Below are positions 4,888 to 63,483 of a stretch of DNA of 64,000 bases, piece after piece; position 1 is the stretch's first letter; each line of letters starts with the position of its first letter. Where the stretch lies: positions 620,001-684,000 of the forward strand of contig NZ_PVTF01000003.1 in assembly GCF_003002815.1 (NCBI RefSeq), in the 5' to 3' direction. The notes beneath the pieces were generated by a model that was not told the origin of the DNA, searched no databases, and worked only from the letters and a program-made list of their open reading frames with translations. The position numbers were made by a program, and so were the translations under genes. The stretch is from Umezawaea tangerina. Lineage in GTDB: Bacteria > Actinomycetota > Actinomycetes > Mycobacteriales > Pseudonocardiaceae.

Positions 4888-4960
4888 GTACGACCGCCGG
4901 AGTCCTGGCACGACCGCCAGCGCCGGAAAAGCCCCGCCACCTGCGCCGATCCGGACCTAC

Positions 4961-5408
4961 CAGAATTGTCGGACCCCCTGCGTACTGTTCTGTTCGGGAG
5001 GTTCTCACGACAGGGCGACCCCTGCGAAGCACGCTTTCCGAGCGCCGAGCGCCGAGCGCCGAGCGCCGCAGTGGCCTGGGTCCTTCGGTGCAGCGGCACT
5101 GGCCCACGGGAGCTGGCGATGCCGACCGGGACATGCGCCAAACGGCTCGCCGCACCCGCCCAAGCAACTGCGCTGGCTCCTGAGCACCGCACCGCACCGC
5201 GCTGCACCGCACCTGACCGGGCCGCGCAGCGCTGGACCTGTCCGCGCCGGACCAGACCGCACGTCATGCCCGCCCCGCGCCGAGTCCCTGCACCCAACCT
5301 CACCCCAGCGGCCCCAGGCACACACACCTCACCGCAGGCTCCGCAGGGGTAACCCGACCGTGAGGCCCCCCGAACCGAACACTACCCACGGGGTCCGACA
5401 ATTCCGGG
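4961..5408. repeat. inverted repeat around a gene-less segment (possible decayed mobile gene)
   Basis: A segment at about 4961-5004 (core GAATTGTCGGACCCC, then TGTTCGG) recurs inverted at about 5364-5408. Over 37 aligned bases there are about six differences. The roughly 360 bp between the copies has no credible reading frame and holds short tandem repeats. Together with its flanks it fills the space between the hydrolase and ybaK 3' ends (4888-5419). I recall similar TCGGACCCC-containing stretches beside 13E12-type HNH genes in actinomycetes. That link is weak and untested. Confidence 0.6.
5040..5067. repeat. 7-bp tandem repeat, four units
   Basis: The unit GAGCGCC is repeated four times without change inside the gene-less segment 4961-5408. 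No coding role is visible. Confidence 0.85.
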
Positions 5409-15423: not shown

Positions 15424-15579
15424 ATGATCGTTCTTGGTTTGATCCTGCTGGTGGTCGGCTGGTTGGCCGGGATTTCGATCCTGACGACCATCGGCGTAAT
15501 CCTGCTGGTGATCGGCGCCATCCTCGCCGTGCTCGGCGCGGTCGGCCGTCCGGTCGGCGGCCGGAGCCACTTCTTCTAG
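15424..15579 (+). CDS. DUF6131-type 51-residue membrane protein
   Basis: The product has 51 residues and is almost entirely two hydrophobic helices (MIVLGLILLVVGWLAGI and a second helix), ending GGRSHFF. Similar tiny proteins are widespread in actinomycetes. The ATG at 15424 is set by GGAGG five bases upstream; an in-frame ATG at 15412 would overlap that site. A perfect hairpin terminator lies 18 bases after the stop. Confidence 0.8.
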   Translation: MIVLGLILLVVGWLAGISILTTIGVILLVIGAILAVLGAVGRPVGGRSHFF

Positions 15580-15597: not shown

Positions 15598-15633
15598 GCG
15601 AGGGGCGCCTCCCACCTGGGAGGCGCCCCTCGC
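15598..15633 (+). terminator. perfect hairpin terminator
   Basis: GCGAGGGGCGCCTCCCA (15598-15614) and TGGGAGGCGCCCCTCGC (15617-15633) form a perfect 17-bp stem, 18 bases after the small membrane protein gene. Confidence 0.85.
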
Positions 15634-15711
15634 GGGCGTCCACCCAAAAGTCGAAATTCCCGCGAAACGCGGATGCTCATCCAACGCGGAAGTGACACGG
15701 ACCGCCAATGA

Positions 15712-16010
15712 GCGAAGCCCGCCAGCGCCCATCCGGCGCGGAGCGCCTGGGGCCTTGTCCGCCGCGCAGCAAGGATGCTCTGTCCGCAGCGCAGCAAGGA
15801 TGCTTTGTCCAACGGCGAAGCCGAGGATGCCTTGTCGGGCGGAGCCCGATGCCCTGTCGAGCGCAGCTCGATGCTGGCGAAGCCAGATCCCCTCCCGCCC
15901 CCGATAAACAGCGCCCTCCTGCCCTGCCCTAGTTTGTCAAGACAGCTCTATCGTCTTGACAAACTAGGGCAGGGCATTGAGACAATCGCGCGCCGGGGGC
16001 CGGGCTTCGC
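15712..16010 (+). repeat. dispersed GNA-triloop hairpin-array element, copy 1
   Basis: This 299-bp non-coding element has a second, inverted copy at 58371-58620. It starts GCGAAGCCCGCCAGCG and contains a row of small hairpins with GNA triloops: GGCGC-GGA-GCGCC, GGC-GAA-GCC, GGGC-GGA-GCCC, GAGC-GCA-GCTC, TGGC-GAA-GCCA. They are separated by spacers resembling GATGCnnTGTC. It ends in a 24-bp perfect hairpin (15920-15976, loop AGCTCTATC) and the conserved tail TTGAGACAATCGCGCGCC. It fills most of the 443-bp gap between two genes. I see no open frame with coding character. Confidence 0.8.
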
Positions 16011-16022
16011 GCAGTGGTCCCC

Positions 16023-16646
16023 TCACTCCAACGGCCCCCTCAACTGCCCCGCCACGTACCTCCGCAGGCTCCCCACCAGATCCACCCGCCCCCGGTCCGA
16101 CAACCACTGCACCTGCAACCCGTCCATCAACGCCACCAGCGTCAACGCCGCGTACTCCGGATCAACCCCCTCCCGAAGCCGTCCCTCCGCCGCCAACGCC
16201 CGGAACGACTCCGCCGCGTACTCCCGCGCCATCCGGTAGTGCTGTTCGAAGTACTCGTGCGCCGGGTGGTCCGCCGCCACCGCTTCCGCCGCCAGCCGCG
16301 AGTACAGCTCCACGATCCCGGGGTGCCGCACGTTGTAGGCCGCCAACCCGATCAGCCTGAGCAGCGCTTCGAGTCCCGGCGGCCCGGTCAGGTGCTCCCG
16401 TTCGCCGTCTTCGGCGTCCCGCCGTTCCAGCACCGCCGCGAGCAGCGCTTCCTTGCTCGGGAAGTAGTACAGCAACCCGGCGTGCGTGATCCCGACCCGC
16501 CGCGCGATCTCCCGCAGCGACGACCCGTGGTACCCGGCTTCGGCGTACATCGCCACCGCCGCCCCGAGGATGTCCTCCCGCCGGATGCGCCCTTTCGAAT
16601 ACCCGCCGGTCGTCGGACTGCGTTCAGCGGCTCGCACGCCGCCCAT
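16023..16646 (-). CDS. TetR-family transcriptional regulator
   Basis: The product has 207 residues. The N-terminal helix-turn-helix is EDILGAAVAMYAEAGYHGSS followed by LREIARRVGITHAGLLYYFPSKEALL, a clear TetR signature. The C-terminal ligand domain is of the larger TetR_C type (RHPGIVELYSRLAAEAV). The start is ATG 16646 or the adjacent ATG 16649, with no obvious ribosome site. It diverges from the phosphotransferase gene with only a 64-bp gap, so it may regulate that gene. Its stop lies 13 bp from repeat copy 1. Confidence 0.88.
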   Translation of the reverse strand: MGGVRAAERSPTTGGYSKGRIRREDILGAAVAMYAEAGYHGSSLREIARRVGITHAGLLYYFPSKEALLAAVLERRDAEDGEREHLTGPPGLEALLRLIGLAAYNVRHPGIVELYSRLAAEAVAADHPAHEYFEQHYRMAREYAAESFRALAAEGRLREGVDPEYAALTLVALMDGLQVQWLSDRGRVDLVGSLRRYVAGQLRGPLE

Positions 16647-26790: not shown

Positions 26791-26893
26791 GCGAGGCCGC
26801 GTCGGTAGGTCGGCCCCGGTTTTCCGATGCCGGCGACGCTGTCCCCGGCGTCGGAAAACCGGGGCCGAACTGCCGACTCCCCGGCGGCCTCGC
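26791..26893. repeat. nested palindromic element upstream of the osmoprotectant operon
   Basis: Inner arms TCGGCCCCGGTTTTCCGA (26810-26827) and TCGGAAAACCGGGGCCGA (26851-26868) are perfectly complementary. Outside them GCGAGGCCGC (26791-26800) pairs with GCGGCCTCGC (26884-26893), and a third inner stem GCCGG/CCGGC lies near the centre. Together they fill most of the 276-bp gap between two divergent genes. Confidence 0.75.
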
Positions 26894-58304: not shown

Positions 58305-58380
58305 CCCCTGGGGAAGCCCTGCCCTGCCCTCCCACCGTGCGAAGCCCGGCCCCCGGCCGTTTCACCCCCTGGGGAAGCCC
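58305..58380. repeat. 61-bp-spaced direct repeat next to repeat copy 2
   Basis: CCCCTGGGGAAGCCC occurs at 58305-58319 and again at 58366-58380. The intervening DNA repeats CCCGGCCCCCGGC-like sequence that also ends repeat copy 1, so the element is extended on this side. A CTCCC/GGGAG hairpin lies near 58250. Confidence 0.7.
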
Positions 58381-58620
58381 AGCCCCCGGCGCGCGATTGT
58401 CTCAATGCCCGATCTTCGTTGTCAAGACGATAGAGCTGTCTTGACAACGAAGATCGGGCAGGAGGGCGCTGTGGATCGGGGGCAGAGGGGAAGTCTGGCT
58501 TCGCCAGCATCGAGCTCCGCTCGACTCAAGCATCGGACTCCGTCCGACACTGCATCCTCGCTGCGCGTCGGACAAGGCCCCAGGCGCTTCGCGCCGGATG
58601 CGCGCTGGCGGGCTTCGCCC
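58371..58620 (-). repeat. dispersed GNA-triloop hairpin-array element, copy 2
   Basis: Read on the minus strand, this matches copy 1 (15712-16010) closely from GGCGAAGCCCGCCAGCG to TTGAGACAATCGCGCGCC, but has about two fewer modules. The GNA hairpins read GGCGC-GAA-GCGCC, GGAC-GGA-GTCC, GAGC-GGA-GCTC and TGGC-GAA-GCCA. The terminal 23-bp hairpin (58406-58460) keeps the loop AGCTCTATC and the inner TTGTCAAGAC stem, but its outer stem differs from copy 1 with matching changes on both arms. It begins 34 bp beyond the permease stop and lies upstream of the exporter gene. Confidence 0.8.
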
Positions 58621-63252: not shown

Positions 63253-63307
63253 TCAGCCGTTCGCCAACTGAAGAACGGCCGAGGCGCCCACCGGGCGCCG
63301 CACCCCG

Positions 63308-63483
63308 AGCGGGAGAGCCCCCGGCAGCAGCCGAGGCGCCGAAGGAGCAAGCACCCCGCACACTCTCAGGCACCAAGAACCGCTCGGGCGAGGCGACTCT
63401 GGAAAGCGTGCTCCGGCGCGCACCCACGGTGCAAGCCGCGCCCGCGCGGTGAAGCTCTCAGGTCCCATGACAGAGGGGGAGTC
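63308..63483 (+). ncRNA. tandem glycine riboswitch
   Basis: The conserved glycine-aptamer signatures occur twice. Aptamer 1 has GGGAGAG, then GGCGCCGAAGGAGCAAGC and CTCTCAGGCACC. Aptamer 2 has GACTCTGGAAAGC, CGGTGCAAGCC, GTGAAGCTCTCAGG and a closing AGAGGGGGAG. They are joined by a short linker and lie 62 bases upstream of gcvH. In other bacteria this RNA turns on glycine-cleavage genes when glycine is high, the expected role here for gcvH and the adjoining serine dehydratase gene. Confidence 0.92.

Follow-up and report, generated by a model that had tools for sequence, protein, structure and literature searches.

A dispersed palindromic repeat of Umezawaea tangerina and its likeness to the first hairpin of a conserved non-coding leader in pSAM2-like AICEs

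A stretch of 64,000 nucleotides from Umezawaea tangerina (contig NZ_PVTF01000003.1, positions 620,001 to 684,000; referred to hereafter as the window) carries two inverted copies of a non-coding element. Copy 1 occupies about 15710-16008 on the plus strand, and copy 2 about 58620-58374 on the minus strand. The flanking ORFs were judged by eye to be phosphoglycerate-mutase-like, TetR-like and ABC-transporter-like; no AICE genes were seen among the ORFs beside either copy, which places neither within an AICE. The initial annotation had described copy 1 as simply downstream of a gene in its own orientation. The ORF list puts it between convergent genes: a plus-strand frame ends at 15579 and a minus-strand frame at 16023, the latter 14 nt from the element.

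The modular layout proposed for the two copies, GNA-triloop mini-hairpins followed by a long hairpin, was present at both places. In copy 1 (all features on the plus strand), a 5' block composed of a mini-hairpin, a CATCCGGCGCGGAGCGCC hairpin and a TTGTC linker (15710..15759) is followed by an array of c(GNA)g mini-hairpins with GATGCnnTGTC-like linkers between them (15760..15887). This array has nine c(GNA)g sites, five with at least four contiguous pairs and four with one or two. The 5' arm of a closing stem, GCCCCCG (15897..15903), precedes a long perfect hairpin (15920..15976) with a 14-bp outer stem, a 10-bp inner core (TTGTCAAGAC/GTCTTGACAA) and the loop AGCTCTATC, 24 bp in all. A putative promoter-like sequence, TTGACA-N19-GACAAT, spans 15956..15986, and the 3' arm of the closing stem, CGGGGGC, together with the element end GGGCTTC, lies at 15994..16008. 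Copy 2, on the minus strand, has its 5' block and array at 58495..58620, with six c(GNA)g sites, five of at least four contiguous pairs and one of three. Its closing stem has the 5' arm at 58477..58483 and the 3' arm, with the element end, at 58374..58388. The long perfect hairpin (58406..58460) has a 13-bp outer stem and the same 10-bp inner core, 23 bp in all, with a 9-nt loop identical to that of copy 1. A putative promoter-like TTGACA-N18-GACAAT preceded by TG was found by promoter scan at 58396..58425. The folding energies of the two copies (z = -6.4 and -5.2) lay beyond those of 100 dinucleotide shuffles.

The element is dispersed far beyond the two copies of the window. A 29-bp core was matched at 166 places in the genome with up to three mismatches, and a reversed-pattern control at 0. 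With the core written as TTGTCAAGAC-N9-GTCTTGACAA and up to two mismatches, the 10.7-Mb U. tangerina genome (G000) gave 177 matches and two congeners 74 and 134, while the remaining 57 genomes of the sample had none. When named genomes were scanned, at least 103 stretches were returned, and the 80 listed were all from Amycolatopsis, Umezawaea endophytica or Actinokineospora. Genome G001 is taken as U. endophytica from the likeness of L091 and L129 around the core. Further copies thus occur both in the U. tangerina genome and in relatives. A GGC form of the core was present in 15 of 80 genomes of Amycolatopsis (the genus of genome G150, assigned by locus identity); ten of the 80 had at least 20 such cores, which points to bursts in some of them. 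In six contigs of G150 (C6, C26, C30, C36, C41 and C51) cores lay less than 100 bases from the contig start, as though the hairpin breaks assemblies.

The general plan of the repeat is a 5' block with a c(GNA)g array, closing stem, long hairpin, ACAAT or ACACT, and closing stem. The 5' block with its array is known from genomes G000 and G002; at up to one mismatch the block was found 207 times in G000, 84 times in G002 and 0 times in G001. Across 90 arrays, c(GNA)g hairpins of at least four pairs numbered 16.0 per kb on the element's own strand; the window had 0.2 per kb. The 90 copies fetched from G000 form classes with a common inner core and distinct frames and stems, and none of the 90 cores overlapped a gene predicted by a home-made gene finder. 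The loop, thought to be invariant from the two copies of the window, varies: it is mostly AGCYYYAYC in the U. tangerina genome and ATCTTTCCC elsewhere. No known RNA family matched the element at the Rfam gathering score, in keeping with the earlier failure to name one, and matches below that score were mostly microRNA look-alikes on the hairpin. Carriage of the repeat by plasmids or phages was likewise rejected, no match to it being found there.

The gene context of the copies was analysed with the same kind of home-made gene finder, which misses small genes and miscalled copy 1 as divergent. Of the 86 copies flanked by a gene on each side, 46 lay between convergent genes, compared with 15 of 112 other gene pairs (p 1.5e-9), and four lay between divergent genes, compared with 25 of the 112 background pairs. 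At codirectional sites there was no bias of orientation (21 same, 15 opposite). The proposed association with gene 3' ends was therefore borne out as to site, and the proposed tie to the orientation of the upstream gene was not.

The outer stem changes in sequence and stays self-complementary, as had been noted from the two copies. With 14 outer-stem positions scored in 197 distinct copies, Watson-Crick pairs filled 2654 of 2758 cells; 22 were G.T and six A.C. The covariation score was 0.544, compared with 0.132 in shuffles, and was reached by 0 of 500; the number of paired cells also exceeded all 500 shuffles. Two other measures did not stand out, the number of pairs with two-sided change (reached by 54 of 500 shuffles) and the number of pair types (261 of 500), as expected because the columns are nearly saturated. 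Taken with folding energies beyond those of shuffles, the covariation would fit an ordinary functional RNA in all copies, a small RNA or 3'UTR element under compensatory evolution. Such a molecule should leave G.U intermediates, and these are nearly absent: positions 1-13 have 14 G.T and six A.C among 2561 cells, an excess that is not significant (p 0.12), and one core pair is G-C in 34, A-U in 32 and G-U in none of 66 sequences. Since G.T and A.C are both rare in the dispersed stems, this is not ordinary RNA covariation, and we consider a functional RNA in all copies rather improbable. Covariation by itself is thus no proof of RNA; here it is strong and comes without strand asymmetry.

Orthologous sites were compared for 26 copies picked at random from the 90, and sites were counted where both flanks were found. 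In G002, 24 sites had both flanks, of which ten hold the element in an identical position and orientation and 14 do not; in G001, it was present at two of 18 such sites, once inverted (L084), and not at 16. Two G002 comparisons and eight of those made with G001 yielded a single flank or none, and a few of the sites scored as absent show odd gaps that make them uncertain. Outer stem and loop both differed at all ten sites shared with G002. Between fetched loci there were 16 pairs with two flanks, and 13 of these differ at 2-9 of the 12 innermost outer-stem bases while their flanks are 81-97% alike, which also argues against an ordinary functional RNA. In the other three the stem was unchanged (L142/L147, L157/L193 and L201/L203). 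The element was inverted in four of the 16 pairs, at two sites. In Amycolatopsis, 30 orthologs of nine query loci were fetched; the hairpin had seemingly been lost and the frame kept in three (L371, L375 and L376), and at one site the entire element was inverted in four genomes (L353, L356, L358 and L360). These comparisons indicate that sites are often inherited, that copies come and go, and that stem sequence often turns over more quickly than the flanking sequence. Two element-free Amycolatopsis sites, L359 and L363, were occupied by another palindromic repeat, CCAATGTGGCATTGG-like.

The search for a target-site duplication suggested in the initial annotation gave none by eye at the empty sites examined, where the flanks are of low complexity. 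Like MITEs, the repeat is short and non-coding, has inverted terminal segments and is present or absent at orthologous sites; unlike them, it has yielded no parent transposase and no target-site duplication. An autonomous parent found no support: among the 25 largest clusters of ORFs within 2.5 kb of 197 copies there was no recurrent transposase-like cluster, three large clusters being apparent translations of the repeat itself and the others comprising at most seven loci each. The repeat also resembles the REP/BIME elements of enterobacteria and pseudomonads, which are extragenic palindromes in modular arrays, present in many copies and seldom between divergent genes. It differs from them in its much longer perfect hairpin, its variable outer-stem sequence and its kinship with an AICE end, described below. 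Movement of such an element by a RAYT (Y1 HUH) transposase would account for its palindromic arrays and high copy number. The genome-wide transposase search, which covered Y1_Tnp (PF01797) only, gave 0 matches in G000 and matches in five of 14 control genomes; this origin was set aside on that absence, and we hold it to be improbable.

A covariance model of the repeat was built from 66 sequences. With up to eight candidates scored per genome, it matched 131 of 390 genomes of the family, in 16 of 46 genera. Thirty genomes were chosen among those with matches, mostly with one to three each, and their best E-values ranged from 4.7e-6 to 1e-18. A second motif, CTTGATCCCATAGAG, was first noticed when five of their loci were inspected; 16 wider regions from six genera were then fetched, and the motif (up to three mismatches) was on the hairpin's strand in all 16. 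The distance from core to motif was 233-367 nt in 14 loci and 987 nt in L325; in L328 the core pattern gave no match. In these regions the homologous hairpin is the first hairpin of a conserved non-coding leader of about 420 nt at one end of pSAM2-like AICEs, and is followed by about 330 nt more of conserved sequence and then by cargo. There are one to a few copies of this form per genome.

In eight of the 16 regions a direct repeat 25-61 bp long begins 203-267 nt before the core and is found again 7.4-10.7 kb further downstream. In L320 a 46-bp repeat recurs at 3.5 kb, L324 and L331 have repeats of only 16 bp, and in five of the 16 regions none was found within the stretch covered. At the far repeat lies a gene for tRNA-Lys in L323 and in L332 and one for tRNA-Met in L329; in L326 a tRNA-Lys gene is found at roughly 4.7 kb. 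Profile search identified RepSA (PF20199, E 7.6e-101) and FtsK in L332, and Nudix and HTH proteins in L320; RepSA with FtsK was identified by profile in L332 only, and the remaining backbones were assigned by eye from the likeness of their ORFs. AICEs organised with Nudix, RepSA and FtsK are already known, as is the presence of defence genes close to AICE genes (PMC11706625, PMC3218068). A term search of the accessible part of PMC3218068 found no mention of non-coding or hairpin. The literature found, from a coverage that leaves out most subscription journals, contained no description of the repeat or of the AICE leader, and both appear to be undescribed there. No plasmid matched the leader; among phages, a single record without annotation matched it over 48 nt.

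The CTTGATCCCATAGAG motif itself (up to three mismatches) occurs in 233 of the 390 genomes. At 12 motif loci picked without the model, the downstream sequence had at most 56% GC in five and there was a core-like hairpin upstream in three, so that the motif is more widespread than the hairpin and cargo is not always next to it. Across loci L335-L346, a GC-rich hairpin with a CTTGATCC motif can also stand where the long hairpin is missing, and low-GC cargo does not always accompany it.

The stem of the AICE form differs from that of the dispersed copies in its wobble pairs. At positions 2-16 of 15 loci (L328 left out, and two of the 15 sharing one stem), 43 of 225 cells were G.T and one was A.C, which indicates that the plus strand folds. 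The proposal of a structured RNA or single-stranded DNA under selection is thus upheld by strand asymmetry in the AICE leader and lacks that support in the dispersed copies. An alignment of 15 leaders, omitting L325 for its long insert, showed two-sided changes in 19 of 70 pairs, with several C-G, U-G, U-A series. Beyond the first hairpin, G.T exceeded A.C by 28 to 4 and by 21 to 0, an excess that counts for less because the pairs were picked by a folding program that favours G.U. Core, closing stem and ACGCTTTCCC loop are common to the AICE form and the dispersed repeat, and the dispersed copies L351 and L366 have this loop. Among the best loci of the 30 chosen genomes (28 parsed), stems ranged from AICE-like with a first-pair mismatch through to perfect. 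Intermediate stems with a first-pair mismatch occur at L273, L278, L283 and L288, which are taken as dispersed copies on the assumption that genomes with at least eight matches carry these.

The leader marks a change in base composition, with 64-70% GC upstream and 48-60% downstream. A low-GC ORF on the leader's strand comes next at 15 loci; at L333 an opposite-strand ORF comes first, and the cargo gene there was left out of the scan. PADLOC assigned ten of the 15 first cargo genes to known or candidate anti-phage families, namely DRT UG22, PtuA, PD-Lambda-5, Type IIG RM, NsnA, NsnB, SoFic, ThsB and ApeA, with a partial match to pAgo models for L325. The first cargo genes of L320, L322, L329, L330 and L332 had no PADLOC match. 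Those of L320, L322, L329 and L332 matched neither PADLOC nor Pfam and are candidate new defence genes. With five of 15 first cargo genes unmatched by PADLOC, the leader module offers a handle for finding new defence genes. Conserved and non-coding, this module marks a slot of mobile elements that holds defence genes, and an unexplained chromosomal repeat is now linked to it.

The promoter-like sequences suggest another role for the hairpin. It may be a promoter or initiation site that works on single-stranded DNA, comparable to Frpo of F and to the sso of rolling-circle plasmids, in which the folded right arm supplies a double-stranded -35 (TTGACA) and RNA polymerase starts just past the hairpin base, making a primer or early mRNA for AICE cargo; the dispersed copies would be derived from it. 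PMC10085688 cites Frpo as a hairpin from which both transcription and priming start, and RepSA is discussed as a rolling-circle initiator in the accessible part of PMC3218068. Like Frpo and single-strand origins, the hairpin carries a -35-like box within its stem and has a -10-like site at its base, and TTGACA-N17 to 19-nACAAT/nACACT was present in 194 of 197 dispersed copies. Copy 2, with its TG, scored 10 of 12 with the promoter scanner (mean 0.0 in 50 shuffles), but copy 1 received no score, its N19 spacing falling outside the 16-18 that the scanner covers. The c(GNA)g loops, a motif that is very stable in DNA, are confined to one strand, and at the 15 scanned loci the cargo genes, as well as RepSA and FtsK of L332, are on the leader's strand. 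However, the -10-like site is poor in AICEs, the AICE stem is rich in G.T, and among the 84 5' blocks along the G002 chromosome neither a replication-strand bias nor a strand switch is visible. Unlike Frpo and single-strand origins, the repeat has very many chromosomal copies, and the likeness is one of sequence signals. A firm claim of promoters for the dispersed copies was dropped because the majority (61 of 86) point antisense into the next gene. We regard a single-strand promoter as possible though unlikely; it is the main rival to a leader hairpin or terminator.

The explanation that we favour, and to which we give about an even chance, is that the element of the window derives from the AICE leader hairpin as a miniature, amplified form, which sits strand-symmetrically at gene ends and is either tolerated or acts as a two-way terminator. 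The plus strand of the AICE form would fold, most likely as the leader RNA of the cargo transcript or as a small RNA. Its first hairpin may have escaped, been miniaturised and then amplified in some Pseudonocardiaceae, where the copies would behave as strand-symmetric hairpins at gene 3' ends, tolerated as REP or MITE elements are and, at the very most, terminating transcription from both sides. Perfect pairing could be retained either if both strands must fold or if template switching lets one arm correct the other. An RNA hairpin first and a strand-symmetric palindrome later would be the simplest history, and AICE ends do share hairpin, closing stem and loop with the repeat while differing from it in being G.T-rich, in having one to few copies and in the conserved sequence and cargo that follow. 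Points against this derivation are that no mover was found, that no target-site duplication was seen and that the stem was unchanged in three of the 16 orthologous pairs. Against the terminator role in particular, an intrinsic terminator scan found no stem followed by a T run at copy 1 or copy 2, and the hairpin was seemingly lost from L371, L375 and L376. A terminator at copy 1 would also be redundant, since the gene upstream has its own GC-rich hairpin at 15598-15633.

More tentatively, and with less confidence than in the derivation itself, we propose that a new AICE leader RNA heads the anti-phage slot in Pseudonocardiaceae and that the escaped first hairpin is a genome-wide selfish palindrome, whose arms are rewritten together by hairpin-templated copying, with paired replacement and without wobble intermediates. 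The difference between a G.T-rich AICE form and a G.T-poor dispersed form makes the upkeep of perfect palindromes testable.

The window holds other structured sequences. A glycine riboswitch aptamer was identified at 63300-63392 on the plus strand (48.1 bits). An inverted repeat of 37 nt with a 3-nt gap (26801-26877) is 89% complementary, and a pair of inverted repeats at 4960-5001 and 5366-5407 is 86% complementary. A GGGTCCGACAATTCCGG stretch near element L007 resembles the latter pair, which is perhaps another dispersed repeat.
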